Shown here: one piece after another, positions 8,843-33,790 of the stretch | Numbering within the stretch: position 1 is the stretch's first letter | Layout of the letters: every line of letters starts with the position of its first letter | Source: Candidatus Saccharimonadota bacterium | GTDB lineage: Bacteria > Patescibacteriota > Saccharimonadia > Saccharimonadales > Saccharimonadaceae | NCBI GenBank assembly: GCA_017421325.1 | Contig: JAFOJO010000007.1 | Span: forward strand, 1-45,512 | Direction: 5' to 3' | DNA length: 45,512 nucleotides | Made by a program: the position numbers and the translations under genes | The notes under the pieces: generated by a model | Databases searched by the model: none | What the model was told of the DNA's origin: nothing | What the model saw: the letters and a program-made list of their open reading frames with translations, nothing else

Positions 8843-9919
8843 TTAGAGAGAGGAAAGGATTTTGTGGGCTTCTTCTACGGAGTGGGTTTCCATGAGCTTG
8901 GCTCGGAGTTCTTTGGCGCCGGGGAAGTTGTTGACGTAGATTTTGAAGAAATGTTTAAGTGGTTCGTATGAAATATGTCGAGGTTCGCAATTCCCACAAT
9001 ATTTCGGAAGCTCCGCAATGTGATAATCGGAGATTTTATCACATTGCTCCGCCCCTTCGGCGGCAAGAATCTGCCTTTGGCAGATTTTGCCTTTATGTTC
9101 CTCAATATTTGTGGGAATTGTATATTTTCCATATAAGTCTAAATGCATTTTCAAAAGTTCCATCAATTCTTCGCGGGTGGGAGTGTGGTCGGTGAAACAA
9201 TAGGGGTTGGCGAAAACGCCGCGGCCGATCATGAAACCGTTAACTTCGGGGTATTTTTGATGTAGCTCTAGAGCGTGAGCTTTGTCTTTGATATCACCAT
9301 TGATGATTAATTTCGTTTCTGGACTGACCTTATTGCGCAGCTGAATAATTTCTGGGATTAGCTCATAGTGGGCTGGGACTTTGCTCATTTCTTTTTTGGT
9401 GCGAAGATGTATGGTGAGGGCAGCAGGATGTTCGGCGAGCAAAATTGGTAGCCAGGTTTTATATTCTTCCGGTGCGCTCCAGCCGAGACGGGTTTTAACG
9501 GAGACGGGCAAGGAGGTAGATTTTTTTGCATTTCTAAAACATTCTACGGCTAAGTCTGGGGTTTTGATCATAGCGGCGCCACCGCCGGCTTTATTGACAT
9601 GTTTATCGGGGCAGCCAAAATTAAGATCTACGCCGGAAAAACCAAGATTGCCAAGCGCCTGGCAAGTTTCCGAAAAATGCTCAGGATTTTTGCCCCAGAT
9701 TTGGGCAATGATGGGACTATCTGTGGGGGCGACTTCTAATCTTTCTAGAGCGTTGTGGCGGCCTTTTTCAGAGGCATAGGAAGAAACATTGGTAAATTCT
9801 GTAAAAAATAAATCCGGTCGGCCGGCACGTGCGATAACTTGACGAAACATAATGTCTGTAACGCCTTCCATCGGTGCCAAAATTAGAAATGGTTTTGGTA
9901 AATTGTCCCAGATATTCAC
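8843..9919 (-). CDS. dus: tRNA-dihydrouridine synthase, GTG start, palindromic insert
   Basis: 358 residues when started at GTG 9919 (VNIWDNLPKP). That start is preferred to the ATG at 10036 because TATAAT lies at 9926-9931, 6 nt upstream, and because the longer version would overlap the neighbour and read through its terminator. FMN TIM-barrel motifs: LAPMEGVTD (about 14-22), VDLNFGCPDKHVNKAGGGAA with the catalytic Cys, and VSVKTRLGW. The enzyme reduces uridine to dihydrouridine in tRNA using NADPH and FMN. Residues about 267-311 are encoded by an in-frame palindromic element (8988-9120) located between the barrel and the C-terminal helical domain. This insert is absent from the usual Dus architecture. 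Confidence 0.9.
   Translation of the reverse strand: MNIWDNLPKPFLILAPMEGVTDIMFRQVIARAGRPDLFFTEFTNVSSYASEKGRHNALERLEVAPTDSPIIAQIWGKNPEHFSETCQALGNLGFSGVDLNFGCPDKHVNKAGGGAAMIKTPDLAVECFRNAKKSTSLPVSVKTRLGWSAPEEYKTWLPILLAEHPAALTIHLRTKKEMSKVPAHYELIPEIIQLRNKVSPETKLIINGDIKDKAHALELHQKYPEVNGFMIGRGVFANPYCFTDHTPTREELMELLKMHLDLYGKYTIPTNIEEHKGKICQRQILAAEGAEQCDKISDYHIAELPKYCGNCEPRHISYEPLKHFFKIYVNNFPGAKELRAKLMETHSVEEAHKILSSL
8988..9120. repeat. Palindromic element family B, copy 1 (inside dus)
   Basis: The outer arms CAATTCCCACAATATT (8988-9003) and AATATTTGTGGGAATTG (9104-9120) are inverted and occur in no other copy. Hairpin 1: GCAATGTGATAA (9015-9026)/TTATCACATTGC (9036-9047). A conserved linker CGCCCCTTCGGCG follows. 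Hairpin 2: 9062-9075/9079-9091. The core matches 31690-31817 and 32055-32189. It leaves dus in frame. Confidence 0.85.
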
Positions 9920-9925
9920 TTGAGT

Positions 9926-9931
9926 ATTATA
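9926..9931 (-). promoter_or_regulatory. -10 box of dus (leaderless GTG start)
   Basis: TATAAT on the minus strand, 6 nt before GTG at 9919-9917. It decides the dus start. Confidence 0.6.
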
Positions 9932-9950
9932 ACATTTTTTGTGGTATATG

Positions 9951-9977
9951 TAAAAGCCCCGATATGAAAATCGGGGC
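9951..9977 (-). terminator. Intrinsic terminator
   Basis: GCCCCGAT (9956-9963) and ATCGGGGC (9970-9977) form an 8-bp stem. On the minus strand it is followed by CTTTTA. It ends the transcript of the gene at 9987-10445. Confidence 0.8.
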
Positions 9978-9986
9978 GGCATAGGA

Positions 9987-10445
9987 TTATTCTTGTATAT
10001 ATGTTGGTGGGGTATCGCAGCCGCTATATGAATCATAGAGGATGCGAGCTGTTGCTGGGTTCATGTCTTGAGGGGAAAACAAGAAAAAGCGTTCTCTTGC
10101 GTCTTTCATGAGGTAAATTCCGCTCATTTTTTCGAAATGCCCAGTGCAAATCCTGTAAGTATCCAGTAGGCTTATTTTTGTTCTTTTGATGCGCATGATG
10201 TCTGCTGACGTAATAACGCGTTTGTCGCCAAATTTTTCATAACCCCTGATTTTTAGAGACTTATTCGTCTCGAAAAGCTTTTGGGGACTGTAAAGAAAGT
10301 CGATGAAAGATTTGGCTAGTTTTTGATGTTCTATTGGGTTGTCGTTTTTATCGAAAACGAAGTCCCAATTATAAAGTCTTCTCAATAATATCACCTCGTT
10401 AAAATATCTGAATAATCCTGTTAAAGTGCTCTGGTATTGTAACAT
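9987..10445 (-). CDS. Hypothetical protein, 152 residues
   Basis: I do not recognise a family. The predicted soluble protein is rich in basic and aromatic residues (WDFVFDKNDNPIEHQKLAKS, DTYRICTGHFEKMSGIYL). It has no membrane segment or signal peptide. It lies next to the IS element and may belong to the accessory patch 9987-13664. A TATAAT sits only 3 nt before the annotated ATG at 10445. A downstream TTG at about residue 20, preceded by GAGGTG, is a possible alternative start. The gene has its own intrinsic terminator (9951-9977). Confidence 0.55.
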   Translation of the reverse strand: MLQYQSTLTGLFRYFNEVILLRRLYNWDFVFDKNDNPIEHQKLAKSFIDFLYSPQKLFETNKSLKIRGYEKFGDKRVITSADIMRIKRTKISLLDTYRICTGHFEKMSGIYLMKDARERFFLFSPQDMNPATARILYDSYSGCDTPPTYIQE

Positions 10446-10480
10446 AAAATTATAAAGAAATCAATTATGGCGTATTAACT

Positions 10481-11520
10481 CACAACCTTTGCAACATAAA
10501 AGGTAGGTTCTATACTTAATTTAATACCACTTAAACAAGAAAGGACCTACCTATGTCATATTGTACAGGTAAGAACATAGAAATAGCAAGAGGTAAAGCT
10601 ATGAAAATGCTAGTTATAGAGAAGAAACCAGTAGGAGTAGTAGCAAATCGTTTCGGAGTGAATAGAAGTACTATTTGGCGATGGCATCAGAAATGGCAAG
10701 CTCAGAATAGTAATAAGGTACTAATAAATCATTATCGCCCAAATAGAAAGCCAGGAGAATACTTCAGATGGGATAATGTATGTTGGGGTATTCCTTCATT
10801 ATCCACTGCGCCAAAAAGCCCTCATACACTCTCAGGTGATCTCATACAGTTAGTTTTAGACGTAAGAAGCCAACTAAAACGATGTGCTGAAGTAATTTGG
10901 TATCACATAAATTCAGTATTATGTATTAAAATCAGCCTCTCTAGTGTGCGTAGAATTCTTAAACGACATGGAAGAATGGATAAACCCAAACATCACCGTA
11001 ATAGGCAATATAAAGGTATTCCTAGACCACGGATATTATATCCTGGAGATTTGGTAGAGATTGACACCATCCACCTATTTAATCCAATTACTAAACAAAA
11101 ACGATATATCTATACTGTAATAGATCTATATACTAGAATGGCATATGCTAGAGTTTATAAAGAACTAAGACCAATTAATTCTTTGAATACAATCATAGAA
11201 GCAGAACAATACTTCGGATTTAGATTTAGGATAGTTCAGAGTGATAATGGACTAGAGTTTAGCAAATACTTTTCAGATAGATTAGAAAAACGAGGAATTA
11301 AAATTCGTCATACTAGATTAGGTAGACCAAATGACAATGCTCATATAGAAAGATTTAATAGGACACTGCAAGAGGAATGCACTGGCAACTATTATTTAGA
11401 GAGTGAATCTCTAAAAGCAATGGACGATAAAATACTGTCGTATATTGACTTTTATAACTATCATCGTATACACTTAGGAATAAGTTATAGAACTCCTAGC
11501 CAGATGTTGCAAAAGTAGTG
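10481..11520 (+). mobile_element. IS481-like insertion sequence (about 1.04 kb)
   Basis: Terminal inverted repeats CACAACCTTTGCAACAT (10481-10497) and ATGTTGCAAAAGTAGTG (11504-11520) match at 15 of 17 positions and enclose one intact transposase gene. The right repeat overlaps the last codons of the transposase. The exact outer ends and target duplication could not be fixed; the flanks show no clear direct repeat. The element looks complete and recently active. Confidence 0.8.
10553..11518 (+). CDS. IS481-like DDE transposase
   Basis: 321 residues in a single frame. A helix-turn-helix region at about 15-60 (VGVVANRFGVNRSTIWRWHQKW) is followed by an rve integrase core. The catalytic triad is visible as D in VEIDTIHL, D in VQSDNGLEF and E in NAHIERFNRT. 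The C-terminal YNYHRIHLGISYRTPSQML motif is typical of IS481/IS3-type enzymes. A single frame without frameshift and a length near 320 favour IS481. Shine-Dalgarno AGAAAGGA precedes the ATG. Codon use is AT-rich compared with the housekeeping genes, consistent with transfer. Confidence 0.9.
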   Translation: MSYCTGKNIEIARGKAMKMLVIEKKPVGVVANRFGVNRSTIWRWHQKWQAQNSNKVLINHYRPNRKPGEYFRWDNVCWGIPSLSTAPKSPHTLSGDLIQLVLDVRSQLKRCAEVIWYHINSVLCIKISLSSVRRILKRHGRMDKPKHHRNRQYKGIPRPRILYPGDLVEIDTIHLFNPITKQKRYIYTVIDLYTRMAYARVYKELRPINSLNTIIEAEQYFGFRFRIVQSDNGLEFSKYFSDRLEKRGIKIRHTRLGRPNDNAHIERFNRTLQEECTGNYYLESESLKAMDDKILSYIDFYNYHRIHLGISYRTPSQMLQK

Positions 11521-11570
11521 AAAGTTGTATGATGCTGCTGCGCGTAAAGAGATCTTGGCACATAATTCAT

Positions 11571-13768: not shown

Positions 13769-16486
13769 CTAGATTAGGTCGAGTTGGGTTTTGAGGCGGG
13801 AGATGAGGGATTCTTTCTCTTTGATTTGGTCTTTAGTTTCTTTGACGAGGTGCTCGGGGGCCTTGTTGACGTAATTTGGATTCATCATGCGAGCATTTAA
13901 TGCATCCAACTCACGGCCGACAGAGAGAATTTTTTCAGTAAGAGCATCTTTATACTCTGTAACAACCTTTTCGGGAACATCTAGATATAGCTCGTGATTA
14001 GCAAGCGCGAGCCTGAGGCCCCGTGGCTGGCCGTCTAGGCTATTAATGGCCGGAACCTTGGTAAGAGTGCGGATAAGCATCAAATTGTCCTCTACGAGGC
14101 TATCATTGCCGTATAATAGGCTGTATTTTTTGGCGTTATTGGTGCCTGGAAGGGCCTGCAGGGTGCCTCTAACCTCGGACACGACTGAGATTAGGCCTTC
14201 AAACTCGGCAGCGCTGATAGGATCAAATTTAAGCTTATTTGGCCATTTTGCGGTAGCAATAAAACCGTCCGTCCAGGAAAGATTTTGCCAGATAGCCTCG
14301 GTAACAAATGGGGCAAACGGATGCAAAGCAATAAGAATCGTCTCTAGAGTCTGTTTTAAGAGACCGGTATTTTTGAAGATCTTTTGACTTTCTAGGAACC
14401 AGTCGGCGTATTTATCCCAGATGGTTTGGTATAATACTTCGATAGCTTCGGCGAAACGGTAGTTTTTCATTGAACTTTCTACTTGATTGAGGCAATCGTT
14501 GATTTCGCGGCAAATCCAGTCTTCGCCCATGTTAAGCGTAGAGTAAGGCGTTGAAAATGATTCATCTACGACACGCTCGTTCCGGCCCGTCGTTACGGGC
14601 GGAACTTCGCTCCTGCGCTCCTCGTTAGTCGCGCAAGGTCGCTGATGAACATTTTCCAACGTCTCATTGCTATCGTCAACGGTGGATTGAATTAACCTAG
14701 CGATATTCCAGAGTTTGTTGCAGAGATTGCGGCCGGCAATGACACTGTTTTCACTGAAAGCCTGATTCATGCCGGCGGAACGACCTCTTAAAATACCGAG
14801 GCGAAAAGCATCTGAGCCATATTTGGCGACAAGATCCATAGGATTAATGACATTGCCTTTAGATTTGCTCATTTTTTGGCCATGAGCATCCAATACGAGG
14901 CCGTGGAGATAAACTTCTTTAAACGGCACTTCGCCAGTGACGTAAAGACCCATCATAATCATACGAGCTACCCAAGCGAATAATATGTCGGCGCCGGTTT
15001 CCATGACGTTTAGTGGGTAATAGGGGTTGAAATTGTCTTCCGTCCAGTCGGTACAAACAATGGGCCAATGACTAGAAGAAAACCAAGTGTCAAAAGTATC
15101 CTCATCGCGGACGTATTTAGTGCCGCCAACTTCAATCTCTTTGAGGTGAGTGCGACGGTCAAAAATCCAATCTGGCTCGTCGGTGGCAGCATCGGTAACA
15201 CGGCGGAACATTGGGATAGCAATACCCCAAGGGATCTGGCGGGAGATATTCCAGTCCTTGAGATTTTTGAGGTAATTAATCAGGACTTTTTGCTTGTTTG
15301 CCGGATGGAATTTGATCTCGTTTTGCTCTAGATGTTTGATGGCGACGCTGGCTAGTTTTTCAACATCTACAAACCATTGCTCTTTGAGCATAGGCTCCAA
15401 CACGGTGCCGCATTTATAGCAGTGGGCTACAGAGTGAACGAGCTGTTTTTCGCCCCTGAAAAGATCGGCGGCTTTGAGATCTTTTAGGACTTGCTTGCGG
15501 CATTCAGCAGTAGTGAGACCGTAGTATTTTTCTGGGACATTAATCATGGTGCCATTTTCAGAAATCACCTTGATACGCTCGAGGTTATGGCGTTCGCCTA
15601 CCTCGAAATCATCAAAATCGTGGGCGGGGGTGATTTTTACGGCGCCGGTGCCGTACTCGGGGTCGGCGTGTTCGTCGGCAATAATCGGGATTTCTTTATT
15701 AGCGAGTGGAAGGTGAACAGTTTTGCCAATTAGATCTTTGTATCGCTCATCTTCAGGATTAACGGCTACGGCGGCATCACCAAAAAGAGTCTCTGGCCGG
15801 GTGGTGGAGACGATAATTTCGCCACCATCATAAGTGTAGGCAATATCCCAGAGGGTGCCTTTTTCATCTTTGTGCTCTACCTCGATATCGGCAAAGGCGG
15901 TCTGATGTTTCGGGCAAAAGTTGACGAGCTTTTCGCCGCGGTAAATCATGCCGTCGTTCCACATTTTTTCAAAAGTGGTGTAGACGCGATCGATGACGTT
16001 TTCGTCTAGGGTGAAAGTGAGGTCATCCCAAGAACAAGAGGCGCCAAGAGCGCGGAGTTGCAATTCCATATTGCCACGTTGCTCAGCGACAAAATCCCAT
16101 ACACGGGCATAAAGCTCGTTGCGGTCGTATTCAAAGCGAGTGTGACCTTGTTTTTCTAGATTGCGCTCGTAAACGACCCAGGTCTCAAAGCCAGCGTGGT
16201 CTGCGCCAGGGATATACCAAGTAGAATTACCCTTAAGGCGGTGGTAGCGGATGAGGGAATCTTCTACGGCGATAGTGAGGCCGTGGCCAATGTGCAGGTT
16301 GCCGTTGGCATTGGGGGGTGGCATGACAATACTGTAAGTGTTTTTATTATCACGGTCATCTTTGCCATCGCCGTTGTTATCTACGGGCACCGTGGGGACG
16401 GGTGGGGCGAAGATATCGCTGGCTTCCCAAGCGCCATAAATATCACTTTCATATTCTCCTGGTTCATAACTACTCGCAAATTTCAT
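13769..16486 (-). CDS. valS: Valine-tRNA ligase with in-frame palindromic insert
   Basis: 905 residues, class I synthetase. The HIGH motif is PPPNANGNLHIGHGL (about 56-70), the editing domain is in the middle (STTRPETLFGDAAVAV, GTGAVKITPAHDFDD), and the KMSKS motif is KMSKSKGNVINP (about 537-548). The anticodon-binding domain and a C-terminal coiled coil (LSVGRELDALNAR... KEKESLISRLK) follow. It charges tRNA-Val and hydrolyses mischarged threonine. Residues about 609-646 come from the palindromic element at 14550-14660, between the catalytic and anticodon-binding parts, with no frameshift. A -10 box TAAAAT at 16493-16498 lies 6 nt before the ATG, so the transcript is leaderless. Confidence 0.97.
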   Translation of the reverse strand: MKFASSYEPGEYESDIYGAWEASDIFAPPVPTVPVDNNGDGKDDRDNKNTYSIVMPPPNANGNLHIGHGLTIAVEDSLIRYHRLKGNSTWYIPGADHAGFETWVVYERNLEKQGHTRFEYDRNELYARVWDFVAEQRGNMELQLRALGASCSWDDLTFTLDENVIDRVYTTFEKMWNDGMIYRGEKLVNFCPKHQTAFADIEVEHKDEKGTLWDIAYTYDGGEIIVSTTRPETLFGDAAVAVNPEDERYKDLIGKTVHLPLANKEIPIIADEHADPEYGTGAVKITPAHDFDDFEVGERHNLERIKVISENGTMINVPEKYYGLTTAECRKQVLKDLKAADLFRGEKQLVHSVAHCYKCGTVLEPMLKEQWFVDVEKLASVAIKHLEQNEIKFHPANKQKVLINYLKNLKDWNISRQIPWGIAIPMFRRVTDAATDEPDWIFDRRTHLKEIEVGGTKYVRDEDTFDTWFSSSHWPIVCTDWTEDNFNPYYPLNVMETGADILFAWVARMIMMGLYVTGEVPFKEVYLHGLVLDAHGQKMSKSKGNVINPMDLVAKYGSDAFRLGILRGRSAGMNQAFSENSVIAGRNLCNKLWNIARLIQSTVDDSNETLENVHQRPCATNEERRSEVPPVTTGRNERVVDESFSTPYSTLNMGEDWICREINDCLNQVESSMKNYRFAEAIEVLYQTIWDKYADWFLESQKIFKNTGLLKQTLETILIALHPFAPFVTEAIWQNLSWTDGFIATAKWPNKLKFDPISAAEFEGLISVVSEVRGTLQALPGTNNAKKYSLLYGNDSLVEDNLMLIRTLTKVPAINSLDGQPRGLRLALANHELYLDVPEKVVTEYKDALTEKILSVGRELDALNARMMNPNYVNKAPEHLVKETKDQIKEKESLISRLKTQLDLI
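14550..14660. repeat. Palindromic element family A, copy 1 (inside valS)
   Basis: Imperfect outer arms GTTGAAAATGATTCATC (14550-14566) and GATGAACATTTTCCAAC (14644-14660). The core hairpin is GCCCGT-CGTT-ACGGGC (14585-14600), extended by GTTCC/GGAAC. The core plus the CTCCTCGTTAGTCGCG segment recurs at 28434-28545. On the valS strand it encodes VPPVTTGRNERV. Confidence 0.85.
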
Positions 16487-18965: not shown

Positions 18966-19028
18966 TTCGGCTCCTCTGTGAGAGCTAGGATTTATGGATC
19001 CGTCACTAGCTCTCACAGAGGAGCCGAA
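18966..19028. repeat. Perfect 23-bp inverted repeat
   Basis: TTCGGCTCCTCTGTGAGAGC plus TAG (18966-18988) is perfectly inverted at 19006-19028, with a 17-nt loop. It ends 8 bp from the stop of the VirB6-like gene and has no T-run. It may terminate that gene or be another mirror element. Confidence 0.75.
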
Positions 19029-28159: not shown

Positions 28160-29401
28160 TTATTTTAAAGAGAGAATTACGAGATTTTCAACGTGAGGAG
28201 TGCGAGGGAAAAAGTTGAAAGTTTTGACATCTTCAATCTTGTATTTATCTAATAAAATTTTCACATCGCGGGCTTGAGTGGCGGGGTTACAGGATAAGTA
28301 AATAACAGTTTGGGGGCGGACTTCTAGGAGTTTGTCGATTAGTTTTTTGTCACAGCCGGCGCGAGGAGGGTCAAGGATGACGGTTTGGTCTGGCTCGAGA
28401 TAATCTAAGACTTCTTCTGATTTGGCATTAACCGCAAGAATACTATCATTTCGGACTCGCTCGCTTCGGCCCGTCGTTACGGGCGAAGCTTCGCTCATTC
28501 CGCTCCTCGTTAGTCGCGTACGGTCCTCAATAATAGTATTCTTGCAGTTCTTAGCAAGTTCAGCGTAAGCCGATTTATCAACTTCAACCAAAATAAGCTG
28601 CTTGTCGCGGGCGACGGAGAGGCCGATGGTGCCGACGCCGGCGTAGAGGTCCAGGACATTATCGGTATTAATATATTTTTGTATTTCTTTCAGGGCTAGC
28701 TCGTAGACCGGTAGGTTAATCTGGAAAAAGCCGTTTGGGGAATAAGAATAAGTCTGACCAAGGATTTGGTCGATAAGATTATCAAAAGCTGGATGAGGTT
28801 TACGATTTTCGTAGAGACCGCCGGAAACTTCACCATTTTGGTTGCAACGGAGCAAAATGGACTGATATTTACGGGCTTCCTCGTGGCGACTGTTTAGATC
28901 ATCAATAATTTGCTGAGCTTTGGTGAAAATTTCGGGACGCTCGATAGAGGAAGTTGTAACCGGAATTTTACGATGTGAACCGCGAGTGTGAAAGGCGAGC
29001 TCTATTTTATTTAATTCATTATTCCAATAGAGAGCATATTCCATTTTATTGCGGTAAAAATATGGGGTATCGTCGGTAAAAACTTCGGGCTTTTCCATAT
29101 CTATATGGTGTTCGCGGAAGATTTCTACCACTAGATCTATTTTAAGCTGGTTTTCGTAATCCCAGTCTATAATTTGCCAAGGGGAGGTAGAGAGAAAACA
29201 AGTATCTTTGGGCTCTACGCGGAACTTGGAAGGATTTTCAATTTTAGCGGCGATAGCTTCTACGAAATGCGATTTCTGCTTAGTAATATCATACTCTGTG
29301 ACAATTTCGCCAGGCAAGGCATTCCAAAAGAAGACCTTACGGCCATCTTCTAAAGTGCCGAGTGCTTGGCCACCAGGGATAATTTTCTCTACTTTTACCA
29401 T
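28160..29401 (-). CDS. 23S rRNA (uracil-5-)-methyltransferase, RlmD/RlmCD-like
   Basis: 413 residues from ATG 29401 (MVKVEKIIPGGQALG). The upstream ATG at 29437 is rejected because TATAAT (29409-29414) lies between them, 7 nt before 29401. N-terminal TRAM-like domain, then the SAM-binding Rossmann core VLDLYAGVGTIGLSVA and the catalytic motifs VILDPPRAGCD and SCNPATQARDV (nucleophilic Cys). FFQINLPVYELAL precedes the core. It adds a methyl group to a uridine C5 in rRNA or tRNA; the exact site is not readable. Residues about 286-323, between the SAM motif and DPPRAG, come from the in-frame palindromic element 28434-28545. Confidence 0.88.
   Translation of the reverse strand: MVKVEKIIPGGQALGTLEDGRKVFFWNALPGEIVTEYDITKQKSHFVEAIAAKIENPSKFRVEPKDTCFLSTSPWQIIDWDYENQLKIDLVVEIFREHHIDMEKPEVFTDDTPYFYRNKMEYALYWNNELNKIELAFHTRGSHRKIPVTTSSIERPEIFTKAQQIIDDLNSRHEEARKYQSILLRCNQNGEVSGGLYENRKPHPAFDNLIDQILGQTYSYSPNGFFQINLPVYELALKEIQKYINTDNVLDLYAGVGTIGLSVARDKQLILVEVDKSAYAELAKNCKNTIIEDRTRLTRSGMSEASPVTTGRSERVRNDSILAVNAKSEEVLDYLEPDQTVILDPPRAGCDKKLIDKLLEVRPQTVIYLSCNPATQARDVKILLDKYKIEDVKTFNFFPRTPHVENLVILSLK
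28434..28545. repeat. Palindromic element family A, copy 2 (inside methyltransferase)
   Basis: Outer arms GCAAGAATACTAT (28434-28446)/ATAGTATTCTTGC (28533-28545), 13/13, differ entirely from the valS copy. GGAC/GTCC pair inside. The core GCCCGT-CGTT-ACGGGC is shared with valS, but the flanking stem is GCTTC/GAAGC instead of GTTCC/GGAAC, a compensatory change. It encodes SPVTTGRSERV in frame. Confidence 0.85.
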
Positions 29402-29460: not shown

Positions 29461-31683
29461 ATGTCGGCTGAGGAGATTTTGAAGTCGAGTGAAAGGTCTG
29501 CACTGAAAACCAATCAGTTTGTTTCGCACGTGACTGGTAAAAATACAAAAATGAAATCTGGTAAAAAATTAAAATCCCTCGGGGCGGCGGGGTTTATTGT
29601 GGCAATGATAGTAGTGGTGGCCATACTATTTGGAGCAGGGAATATTATACCTACTACAATCTATGAAAATTTAATTGATGAAACCGATATGCAGTGCGCG
29701 GACGCAACGATGAGTAAAAATTTAGCTTTGCAACAGGCTTTGAGGGATGGCGAGATAGCGAGTGACACAGCGGAGATTTTAAAGAGTAGGGGGATACTGG
29801 TGGGGTATATAGAGGGGAATAATTTTGTAGAGGGCAATAAGGCCGAGGCAAGCTTAGTGCTAAAAAGGGGTGACAAGATGATTACGGCGGATAATTTTAT
29901 AGACGAGGTGGGGATAGACGCGGCTCTATTAGGTAGTATTAATGATGCAACCTATGGCTGCGCGGCATATTATTATGATGAGTCGGCTAACAAGGTGTTT
30001 GAAGAAATTGGAACTTCACGCAATAATTTTACTAGCGAGGATGATTTTGAAGAGAAAATGAATGAGCTGATGGGGGAAGGAAGTGATGTGGGGGTGAATA
30101 GTGTATCGCTAGTAGAAGTAACAGAAGAAAATGCCGATGGCACCACTGAAACGACTTACGAATATGTAGAAAATGGCGAAACGGCAGCCCCAGGAGAGGA
30201 AGTGGCGGAGTTTATAAGTAGCGTAGCAAGCAAAAACCCAGCTGCCAGCACTACGGATGCCACCCTAAATTCGGCGGACCAATTAAAGGTGGCCGAAACA
30301 ATGACTAGGGAGCAAAGGTCAATGAAATTCTTTGCATTATTTATGGAAAATGTTAGCAAAATGAAGGCGGGGGATGGAAATGAATCAAAGCTTAACGATG
30401 AAATGAATTATTTGTATGATAAAGTTGAGACTGAAGTAGTGGATGTGAAAACCGGTGAGGTAAAAAAAATAGTTGGCACAGCATTAGATTCGCCAAGTTT
30501 GTATGCGATACTTTCCGGAAACAAAGTAGATATGGATGCGGTGGGGAATTATTCTACAGATAGAGTCCTAAAAACCGTGGAAAACCAGGTGGGGAGTAGT
30601 GGTTCAGATGTAATACCAGATACGGTGGGTTCATCCGGGGATAAAGAAAAGGGGACGGTGGGAAGGTTTATTAGTGACGGAGTAGAGGCTGCATCTAATA
30701 CGATACTATCTCTGGTAGAGCCAACACTAAATAAATCTTTGGTAAATAATTCTTATAGTAATACTAAAGGTATAGACGGGGGAGAACTATTAGCGGAAGG
30801 TGCAGTAACTTTAGGGAGTAAACTGGCTCGGCAAAGTGGAGCGACGGTGGGGGACGACGCAGCGGTGGAATCTTACGCGAGGTTGAATAATAAAATTGCT
30901 AAAATGAACGCTGAGATAGATAGGATGAACCGGAGTCCGTTTGATGTTACTTCCAAAAATACGTTTCTTGGGGCGATTTTCTATAATTTTGCGGTGGCGA
31001 GTATGAAATTCTCGGGTATTTTCTCAGGGGTAAAGAGTTTTTCTAGCACAGTTAATTCCGCGGTGATATCACTTTTACCAACTTCTTATGCAGATGAAGC
31101 TGGTGGATATTTAACGAATTTTGGGGATTGCGAAACTTATGCCACAATTGGGGCGGTAGGGTCGGCACAATGTGCACCGATAGCCACATTTGATACCTCT
31201 ACCCTAAATAACCCGTTTAATGATGCAGGGTTTGTAAGTTTCGTGGAAAATAATACTACTTTAAGTTCATCTGGGGTAAGGAAGATAAATGAAGGTTCGG
31301 ACCTGGCGAATTTTATACTATATAATAATGAGCGAAAAACTCCGCTAGGGGTGATGGATGGGGGGATTTTGGACTCCCTAAATAACGAGTCTAGCTCTAT
31401 ACCGTTTTTGTCGGATATTGCAGAAATGATAGAGATATTTATGGGGACTTCGGAAGAGAATAAGAGGTTTGCGAGTGGGGAAGAGTTTGTGAATTCTAGT
31501 GCCAACCCAGATTGGCAGACTTATAAGTATGCACAAAGGTATGTATCTTTGGCACGTGCTACGGCGGCGTTAAAGCAATATACCGATGACGAAACCGCAT
31601 ATAATAATATGAAATTCTTTGAGGGGAGCGAGAATCCGGTGGTGGCGTTTATCAAAAACCATAATACGTTGGCAAATAGGTAA
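29461..31683 (+). CDS. Large single-span envelope protein, 740 residues
   Basis: A basic cytoplasmic N-terminus (1-40) is followed by a membrane helix at about 41-63 (GAAGFIVAMIVVVAILFGAG) and a long extracytoplasmic part. That part holds an N-terminal domain with Cys residues (DMQCADATM, TYGCAAYY), an acidic Ser/Thr-rich middle (about 200-420), a hydrophobic patch near 500-540, and a C-terminal domain with more Cys (FGDCETYATIG, SAQCAPIA). No family is recognised. Architecture and size resemble large surface or secretion-apparatus proteins of Saccharibacteria. TATAAT lies 9 nt before the ATG. A family B palindromic element begins 6 bp after the stop. Confidence 0.65.
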   Translation: MSAEEILKSSERSALKTNQFVSHVTGKNTKMKSGKKLKSLGAAGFIVAMIVVVAILFGAGNIIPTTIYENLIDETDMQCADATMSKNLALQQALRDGEIASDTAEILKSRGILVGYIEGNNFVEGNKAEASLVLKRGDKMITADNFIDEVGIDAALLGSINDATYGCAAYYYDESANKVFEEIGTSRNNFTSEDDFEEKMNELMGEGSDVGVNSVSLVEVTEENADGTTETTYEYVENGETAAPGEEVAEFISSVASKNPAASTTDATLNSADQLKVAETMTREQRSMKFFALFMENVSKMKAGDGNESKLNDEMNYLYDKVETEVVDVKTGEVKKIVGTALDSPSLYAILSGNKVDMDAVGNYSTDRVLKTVENQVGSSGSDVIPDTVGSSGDKEKGTVGRFISDGVEAASNTILSLVEPTLNKSLVNNSYSNTKGIDGGELLAEGAVTLGSKLARQSGATVGDDAAVESYARLNNKIAKMNAEIDRMNRSPFDVTSKNTFLGAIFYNFAVASMKFSGIFSGVKSFSSTVNSAVISLLPTSYADEAGGYLTNFGDCETYATIGAVGSAQCAPIATFDTSTLNNPFNDAGFVSFVENNTTLSSSGVRKINEGSDLANFILYNNERKTPLGVMDGGILDSLNNESSSIPFLSDIAEMIEIFMGTSEENKRFASGEEFVNSSANPDWQTYKYAQRYVSLARATAALKQYTDDETAYNNMKFFEGSENPVVAFIKNHNTLANR

Positions 31684-31689
31684 ATTTTA

Positions 31690-31817
31690 TATAATTCATT
31701 AATATCTCGGAAGCTTCGCAATGTGATAATGGATTTTATCACATTGCTTCGCCCCTTCGGCGACCAAACCGCCTGCGGCAGTTTGGTCTTTATGTTCCTC
31801 AATATTAATGAATTATA
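31690..31817. repeat. Palindromic element family B, copy 2 (intergenic)
   Basis: Outer arms TATAATTCATTAATAT (31690-31705)/ATATTAATGAATTATA (31802-31817), 16/16. Hairpin 1 GCAATGTGATAA/TTATCACATTGC as in copy 1. Hairpin 2 GACCAAAC (31762-31769)/GTTTGGTC (31781-31788) differs in sequence from copies 1 and 3 but still pairs. Confidence 0.85.
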
Positions 31818-31863: not shown

Positions 31864-32042
31864 GCTACATTTTGTTATTAACGCTAAAGCGTTTTTAGTA
31901 TCTTATTTGTACCAAACGATTAAAACGGCGCCGTAAAGGGACTGAGTTGCTTGGTACTGCTTTAGTATAAGATAACAAAGTGTAGCACCCCTTGCGGTGC
32001 CATTTTTTGTATGACTACCCCGTTTACAAGTGGCACCGCAAG
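31864..32042. repeat. Palindrome cluster between two family B copies
   Basis: GCTACATTTTGTTAT (31864-31878)/ATAACAAAGTGTAGC (31972-31986), 14/15, encloses smaller hairpins (AACGCTAAAGCGTT, ACGGCGCCGT). A second stem CTTGCGGTGCCA (31991-32002)/TGGCACCGCAAG (32031-32042) is 12/12. I see no coding frame with support in 31684-32227. Confidence 0.7.
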
Positions 32043-32054
32043 CTAAACGCACTT

Positions 32055-32189
32055 TTGCATAATTCATTATGTTTCGGGAGCTTCGTGATGTGATAATAAA
32101 TTTTATCACATCACTTCGCCCCTTCGGCGGCAAAATCTTCTTTCAGCAGATTTTGCCTTTATGTCCCTCAACATTAATGAATTATGCAA
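32055..32189. repeat. Palindromic element family B, copy 3 (intergenic)
   Basis: Outer arms TTGCATAATTCATTA (32055-32069)/TAATGAATTATGCAA (32175-32189), 15/15. Hairpin 1 is GTGATGTGATAA/TTATCACATCAC, with two compensated changes relative to copies 1 and 2. Hairpin 2 GGCAAAATC (32129-32137)/GATTTTGCC (32149-32157). Confidence 0.85.
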
Positions 32190-32227
32190 TAGCAAAGTTA
32201 ATTAAACTAAACTATAGGTGAGGTAAA

Positions 32228-33790
32228 ATGGGTGAAGTAAATAGAACTAAATCATTAAATAGTTCAGGTAGCAGCTATACAGAATTCTACTATCATTTCT
32301 TCCGCAATATTCTTTTGGCTAGTATTCCATTAGTCATTATCTCTGTTATTATTTTATCTTCCATTCATAGCTCTGCCACAGGTTCTAGTTCTGGTTCAGA
32401 CAATCTAGCTATTACTATCTCATCATCTTGTACCCTATCTAGTGTAGTTAATATTCCTCATAATGCAGAAGTGTATAATGGTAACTATTTAGGAGATATA
32501 GGAAAGACTACTATTACTACACTATGCAATGATGGCAATGGCTATAGTGTATATGCAGTAGGGTATAGTAATAATGAAGAAGGTAATAATAAATTAATCA
32601 ATTCTGAAAGACCTGAATATAGTATAGGTACAGGATTAAATACCAGTGGATTAACTTCACAATGGGCTATGAAGTTAAATAATATACCAGATGATCCTTC
32701 TCCTACTCCTCCTACTATAGCAACAGAATATAATAATACCTATGGTGTAGTACCTAATATATGGACCAAAGTAGCTAGTAGGGCTTCTGGTACTACGGAT
32801 ATGGCTGAGGGGTCTAGCTTTACTACTACTTATGCTGTATATGCATCATCTAGTCAGTATGCTGGGACTTATCAGGGGCAAGTGAAGTATTTACTAACAC
32901 ATCCATATTCTACCAATGAACATATATATTACATGCAAGAAGTAGATACTTGGAAAAATACACTAGCATTAGAACAAAGTGTGCAAGCTATAGATAAAAG
33001 AGATGGCAAGAAATACTGGGTAACTAAACTTAAGGATGGAAATGTTTGGATGACACAGAATTTAGATTTTGATATAGTATCAGACGAGCAAGACCCCACC
33101 AAAACGAAAACGTTAACGTCAGAAGATACAGATTTAACAGATCACTCACTTACCGGTGCCTATTCTCAAACTAATGGGTATAACTATGATTCAACTACAG
33201 GAATTACTAGTTGGACTCCAGTAAGCACTGCTAAAACAATTAACTTTGAAGGTACTACTGTAACGGGTTGGCAAAATAACAGCACTGAACCGTATTCTGC
33301 TAATAAAACGGACGACACAGAAACTGGCCACGCATCACTAGGCAATTATTACAACTGGACTGCGACCATAGCGTCCAATAATAGTAGTACGCTCGCAAGC
33401 GACACAATAAACGATATCTCACAAAACCCACAAAATTCTATTTGCCCTAAGGGTTGGAGATTACCTACCATATCTAACGAATCCGGTTCAATCATTAACT
33501 CTACCAATGAATTTGGGAGATTAAACTATTTATATAACGATGGCTCTACTAATGATGACGCTAATTTATTGTCATCTCCATTATGGTTTATAAGAACTGG
33601 TTATATTTCTAACAGTGTGATAGAAGTGTTTTACACTAGAGGTTATTATTGGTCTAGTACAGCAGGGTTACATAATGGAATAGAACTTAGTGCTTATATG
33701 TTAGGTATTGGCGATAACTTTGTCAATATTGCTACAATTGGCTATAATGGAAGATTTTATGGCTTTCCGGTGCGGTGTGTGGCGAGGTAG
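32228..33790 (+). CDS. FISUMP-domain surface protein
   Basis: 520 residues. A membrane helix or uncleaved signal at about 28-50 (ILLASIPLVIISVIILSSIH) is followed by a Ser/Thr-rich beta-type domain (about 60-230) with two Cys (SSSCTLSS, TTLCNDGNG). The FISUMP domain spans about 260-520: RDGKKYWVTKLKDGNVWMTQNLDF, then CPKGWRLPT, YYWSST, FPVRCVAR. It is probably exported and surface-anchored; the role is unknown. GGTGAGG precedes the ATG. The coding sequence is much richer in A+T (TAT, CTA, AGT codons) than the neighbouring housekeeping genes, which suggests acquisition by transfer or relaxed selection. It is a paralog of the fragment at 1-324 and lies next to the palindrome cluster. Confidence 0.8.
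   Translation: MGEVNRTKSLNSSGSSYTEFYYHFFRNILLASIPLVIISVIILSSIHSSATGSSSGSDNLAITISSSCTLSSVVNIPHNAEVYNGNYLGDIGKTTITTLCNDGNGYSVYAVGYSNNEEGNNKLINSERPEYSIGTGLNTSGLTSQWAMKLNNIPDDPSPTPPTIATEYNNTYGVVPNIWTKVASRASGTTDMAEGSSFTTTYAVYASSSQYAGTYQGQVKYLLTHPYSTNEHIYYMQEVDTWKNTLALEQSVQAIDKRDGKKYWVTKLKDGNVWMTQNLDFDIVSDEQDPTKTKTLTSEDTDLTDHSLTGAYSQTNGYNYDSTTGITSWTPVSTAKTINFEGTTVTGWQNNSTEPYSANKTDDTETGHASLGNYYNWTATIASNNSSTLASDTINDISQNPQNSICPKGWRLPTISNESGSIINSTNEFGRLNYLYNDGSTNDDANLLSSPLWFIRTGYISNSVIEVFYTRGYYWSSTAGLHNGIELSAYMLGIGDNFVNIATIGYNGRFYGFPVRCVAR

Follow-up and report, generated by a model that had tools for sequence, protein, structure and literature searches.

The window analysed here is a 45,512-nt stretch of a Saccharibacteria genome, and it holds three copies of a DNA element that we term family B (Table 1). 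One lies within dus, which encodes a tRNA-dihydrouridine synthase and whose start is probably near 9925, judging from comparison with orthologues. The other two are intergenic. Each copy is a branched palindrome, in which an outer stem of about 16-19 bp, variable in sequence yet paired, encloses two hairpins. The outer arm pairs of the two intergenic copies are TATAATTCATTAATAT/ATATTAATGAATTATA and TTGCATAATTCATTATGT/ACATTAATGAATTATGCAA. All three copies fold far below shuffled sequences (z = -8.7, -9.2 and -11.6), the value of -8.7 being that of the reverse strand of the dus copy folded with RNA parameters. A first-pass annotation, made from the sequence alone, had placed three copies at these positions and had described a hairpin 1 that varies as GCAATG/CATTGC versus GTGATG/CATCAC, the linker, hairpin 2 and a TTTATG..CCTCAA segment, all of which are borne out. 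Its limits for the dus copy also stand, but it made no mention of the outer stem that lies inside them, nor did it catch how large the family is or that other palindromic families occupy the same gene sites. Elsewhere in the window, positions 18966-19028 form a 23-bp perfect inverted repeat, TTCGGCTCCTCTGTGAGAGCTAG, with a loop of 17 nt.

Table 1. Family B copies in the window, their parts and the host gene dus.
Feature	Position	Strand	Evidence or remark
dus, tRNA-dihydrouridine synthase with insert	8843-10036	-	Pfam Dus, E 2.4e-48; alignment
Family B copy, genic	8988-9120	+ (dus on -)	R1 (covariance model of family B), 137.6 bits, E 8e-34; in frame within dus
Left outer arm, CAATTCCCACAATAT	8988-9002	+	partner is 9105-9120
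Hairpin 1, GCAATGTGATAA..TTATCACATTGC	9015-9047	+	sequence, consensus structure
Linker, CGCCCCTTCGGCG, 3-bp mini-stem	9050-9062	+	sequence, consensus structure
Hairpin 2, GGCAAGAATCTGCC..GGCAGATTTTGCC	9062-9091	+	sequence, consensus structure
Conserved right segment, TTTATGTTCCTCAA	9092-9105	+	TTCC within; partner GGAA at 9006-9009
Right outer arm, ATATTTGTGGGAATTG	9105-9120	+	partner is 8988-9002
Family B copy, intergenic	31690-31817	+	R1, 131.7 bits; starts 6 nt past the end of ORF 29461-31683
Family B copy, intergenic	32055-32189	+	R1, 161.5 bits, E 2.8e-40; 5′ leader of the gene at 32228

Abundance, distribution and covariation of family B

A pattern search of the 861-kb genome returned 20 places. 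Seventeen copies were aligned to give a structure of 44 pairs, 24 of them with double changes. The covariance model R1 found 23 copies in this genome and 84 further copies in 12 other genomes (1 to 24 each), so that family B numbers some 107 copies in 13 Saccharibacteria genomes. Most copies measure 128-141 bp (roughly 130) and most lie between genes. When 84,980 prokaryote genomes were scanned with an exact pattern, the only matches were to MAGs named Candidatus Saccharibacteria and to one named 'uncultured bacterium'; viral contigs gave no match to the exact pattern. Of 295 genomes sampled from the GTDB family, the 16 with family B all belong to the window's genus, none being found in the 60 other genera sampled (61 in total), and copy number within the genus ranges from 0 to 24. 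The hosts are gut Saccharibacteria of one genus.

The paired covariation reported in the first-pass annotation is real. In 106 distinct copies, paired cells make up 94.9% of the whole structure and 92% of the variable outer stem, and 35 of the 44 pairs show changes on both sides. Double-changed cells number 657, compared with 172 in shuffles. None of 500 shuffles reached the pairing values of the 106 copies, and slid structures were 40-51% paired. These counts lean towards structure because the alignment was fitted to the model, a bias that the shuffles and slides keep small. A subfamily common to three genomes (loci L036, L107, L125, L138, L142 and L143) carries an extra hairpin, ACGCTCGCTTCGCTTCGCTAGAGCGTCCCAAGGGGCTTA, in the CGCCCC linker. 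Two further loci, L010 and L019 (G000:C10:3136 and G000:C37:24980), consist of right ends (TTTATGTTCCTCGA plus arm) that lack the usual left half and are either deletion relics or another variant.

The left neighbour lies on the canonical strand in about 62 of the roughly 88 intergenic copies, and 28 copies sit between convergent genes, often 3-12 nt from stop codons; these counts come from a mechanical ORF scan and are inflated by orthologous copies and by a paralogous gene family. A mild terminator-like effect of the intergenic copies would fit this arrangement. Some ten paralogous, Fib_succ_major-like genes (32000-32260, L022, L023, L026, L065, L078, L090, L107, L114 and L134) have a copy about 37 nt before each of them, usually after a conserved CCCCGTTTACAAGTGGCACC leader. 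These copies probably spread with the gene family.

In-frame copies in dus and other genes

Alignment places an insert of about 46 residues (about 307-352 of the 397-aa ORF) in frame between the barrel and the C-terminal helices of Dus, much as the first-pass annotation had proposed. When 60 other genomes sampled from the family were compared, the Dus match split in most of them, stopping at about 303-309 and resuming at about 338-357. The same-genus genome G001 is among those whose match omits residues about 307-352, and in G013, G020, G028 and G057 the match runs through the insert region. AlphaFold2 gave a mean pLDDT of 81.5 for the protein and block means of 24-49 for the insert (residues 270-315 of the trimmed protein), which is predicted to be disordered.

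The dus site is occupied by family B in five genomes (the window's, G064, G065, G066 and G070), holds a different palindrome in four (G061, G062, G067 and G069) and is empty in four (G072, G071, G063 and G001). In a four-gene tree, whose deep nodes are poorly supported, well-supported sisters differ in state: G069 carries family A and G070 family B, G066 carries family B and G071 is empty, and the window's clade carries family B whilst G072 is empty. Therefore, the site has been turned over repeatedly.

Family B is also found in frame in truB (three genomes), ychF (G062), valS (G071) and a methyltransferase gene (G071), all names other than dus and valS having been assigned by reading the sequences. 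The genic copies are always antisense to the canonical strand and use one frame, with the peptide ..IEEHKGKI..AAEGA..CDKISD... That frame is open in 11 of 11 genic copies and contains a stop, commonly the TAA of the right arm, in 87 of the 93 other scorable copies; for L139, where the script anchored in another frame, the true frame was taken from the ORF.

Other elements use the same places. A second palindromic family, family A, with the motif PVTTGRxER, occurs in the window at about 14550-14660 and 28430-28549, in frame in valS and in a methyltransferase gene, and the palindromes at the dus site of G061, G062, G067 and G069 resemble these inserts. In 11 of 13 genomes the linker site of valS (L262-L274) carries an insert, of several unrelated-looking kinds, which makes it a strong hot spot for in-frame elements. 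Where one genome has an element in dus, truB, ychF or valS, its sisters have an unrelated palindromic element at those codons or none at all. In G064 the truB site of family B holds another insert, a G+C-rich, palindromic-looking stretch of about 129 nt (L203, near 14029-14159).

Filled and empty sites

Several sites that are filled in the window's genome are empty in its close relative G064. Together with the homologue comparison, this supports the earlier proposal that family B is a dispersed element of mobile type. At L036 an 8-bp direct repeat, AAAACGCT, stands on both sides of the insertion; over all flanks, direct repeats are not clearly in excess, and a general target-site duplication is not evident. 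An insertion sequence lies near dus (10480-11521), with an rve integrase ORF (10553-11518) and 18-bp ends, TCACAACCTTTGCAACAT. This was the one insertion sequence compared, and we rejected it as the mobiliser since its ends differ from those of family B. In the ackA-xerC spacer (G000:C32, L280), a family B copy with consensus-like arms adjoins the apparent right end of an older copy, which suggests repeated insertion at this site.

Origin of the elements and of their pairing

Taken together, these data are best explained if family B is a small, mobile but non-autonomous DNA element belonging to a single Saccharibacteria genus, of the kind of the Rickettsia palindromic elements, that decays neutrally after insertion, and we consider this probable. 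A mobilising enzyme would act on the folded palindrome, as single-stranded or cruciform DNA, and active copies would for that reason arrive with fully paired stems. Once inserted, copies would decay neutrally, with most of the survivors in intergenic DNA. Because one core frame, antisense to the canonical strand, can be stop-free, insertions in that orientation and frame and with stop-free arms may survive in genes at flexible linkers, where translation would presumably give a disordered loop some 38-46 residues long. There are points against this explanation. The search for a mobiliser found no Y1 transposase in the genome and different ends on the insertion sequence near dus, the movement is deduced from comparison, and simple copying of one master element does not explain the divergent but complementary arms of the genic copies.

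A wider reading would have the several sequence-unrelated palindromic families of one genus share a process that is free of a transposase, reads DNA shape and targets the same few gene sites, and that with every insertion makes a new, perfectly complementary outer stem in which target DNA is partly used. We regard this as conceivable but unlikely.

It is likewise unlikely that the stems are kept complementary by mutation, through template switching that perfects quasi-palindromes, instead of by mobilisation or selection. Deviating cells comprise 108 G·U and 138 A·C (all pairs, one bulge column left out; the tRNA control of this count is weak, the ARAGORN notation probably marking allowed pairs only), with a similar balance in every gene context, and such symmetry is the expectation of a DNA-level process. 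Moreover, double changes prevail where divergent copies share a site (81 versus 22 expected in 13 comparisons), and stop codons in the arms of genic copies have been replaced on both arms together. However, 20 comparisons of close orthologues gave 75 one-sided changes and only 3 double changes against 1.9 expected, with a divergence of 4.7% in paired and 4.2% in unpaired bases; comparisons of both kinds are not independent within clusters and the numbers are therefore descriptive. As double changes between close orthologues are no more frequent than chance, conversion in place must be rare. Over short times pairing is not maintained in place, yet each member of a divergent same-site pair is well paired. 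This is most simply read, in keeping with a mobile DNA element, as renewal of the structure at each insertion of intact copies, the structure being needed, or made, during mobilisation.

Equally doubtful is the idea that insertion itself creates the outer arms, by duplicating target DNA in inverted orientation. The arms of genic copies mostly depart from the consensus arms, yet they are complementary to each other. The ychF insert of G062 separates V from KPA, and one arm, AAGCCTGC, belongs to the native coding sequence and recurs in inverted form within the insert; there are weaker hints of native arm sequence at dus. However, the ychF insert of G067 has two foreign-looking arms, and a consensus is common to the arms of intergenic copies. 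Among 17 filled/empty pairs, nearly all of them intergenic, the likeness of the arms to the empty site was 5.5 and 6.2, compared with 5.2 and 5.8 for the arms of other copies, and for intergenic copies target-made arms are thus unsupported. The ackA-xerC spacer had been taken as proof of a native arm; we withdrew it because what is shared there may derive from an older element.

That family B is a structured non-coding or cis-regulatory RNA, its covariation reflecting selection on RNA folding, is very unlikely and we reject it. The covariation is indeed very strong, the gene upstream of most intergenic copies lies on the same strand, and the Fib_succ_major-like genes have a copy in the 5′ leader. 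A functional folded RNA would be expected to tolerate G·U above A·C on its functional strand, but the two deviations are equally common, and close orthologues lose pairing at a neutral rate, as fast as loops change; RNA function is therefore unsupported. Moreover, the genic copies are antisense, copy number runs from 0 to 24 inside one genus, and an Rfam search of the window, in which tRNAs alone reached gathering scores, found no family for the element. A repeat can thus covary strongly without this alone pointing to a functional RNA.

The first-pass annotation had also hinted at a Y1 transposase, as for REP-type elements moved by TnpA-REP. Family B shares dispersed hairpin DNA and pairing at the DNA level with such elements, but it is far larger than REP units, and Y1_Tnp (PF01797) had no match in the 98% complete genome whilst five control genomes were positive in the same search, leaving this origin highly improbable. 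Lastly, the view that the insert in Dus is a conserved domain of ancient origin, which the first-pass annotation had named as the finding that would speak against it, is practically ruled out by homologue comparison and the AlphaFold model: the site is the same in five examined genomes, but most sampled genomes of the family lack the insert, sister lineages carry an unrelated insert or none, the same DNA also occurs between genes and the insert is predicted to be disordered.

Comparison with known systems

Protein-coding palindromic repeats have so far been a curiosity of Rickettsia and Wolbachia. Our search of the literature for reports of palindromic elements, or of transposable elements and MITE, in Saccharibacteria found none, most subscription journals lying outside the search.

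Short, non-autonomous and AT-rich MITEs with terminal inverted repeats, such as ERIC, RUP and Correia/NEMIS, resemble family B in being mostly intergenic and sometimes fused in frame (PMC2229807). Unlike these, family B has a branched interior and terminal repeats that differ between copies; a general target-site duplication is not evident, and the one insertion sequence compared, near dus, has other ends. REP sequences with their TnpA-REP (RAYT) Y1 transposases are likewise dispersed hairpin DNA, whereas family B is larger, branched and often genic and in frame, in a genome without a Y1 transposase.

The closest likeness is to the Rickettsia palindromic elements, of about 105-150 bp and several families, whose copies inside conserved genes keep the reading frame and encode a conserved peptide (Ogata et al. 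2000, 2002; reviewed in PMC2229807 and PMC10969869). Like these and the protein-coding palindromes of Wolbachia, family B is a dispersed palindrome of 100-150 bp (mostly 128-141 bp, 23 copies, z below -8) in a genome with several such families. It shares with the Rickettsia elements the occurrence of copies both between genes and in frame in unrelated conserved genes, the single frame and the conserved peptide and, by analogy, an insert that the enzyme putatively tolerates. However, family B belongs to another phylum and the likeness is one of features, its outer arms vary freely and stay complementary, and in sister genomes the codons that it occupies in dus, truB, ychF and valS are taken up by unrelated families. 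In-frame palindromes in a distant, genome-reduced and host-dependent lineage, with filled and empty sites among sisters, offer a comparative system for studying movement without a visible transposase and the way in which essential enzymes gain residues from selfish DNA.
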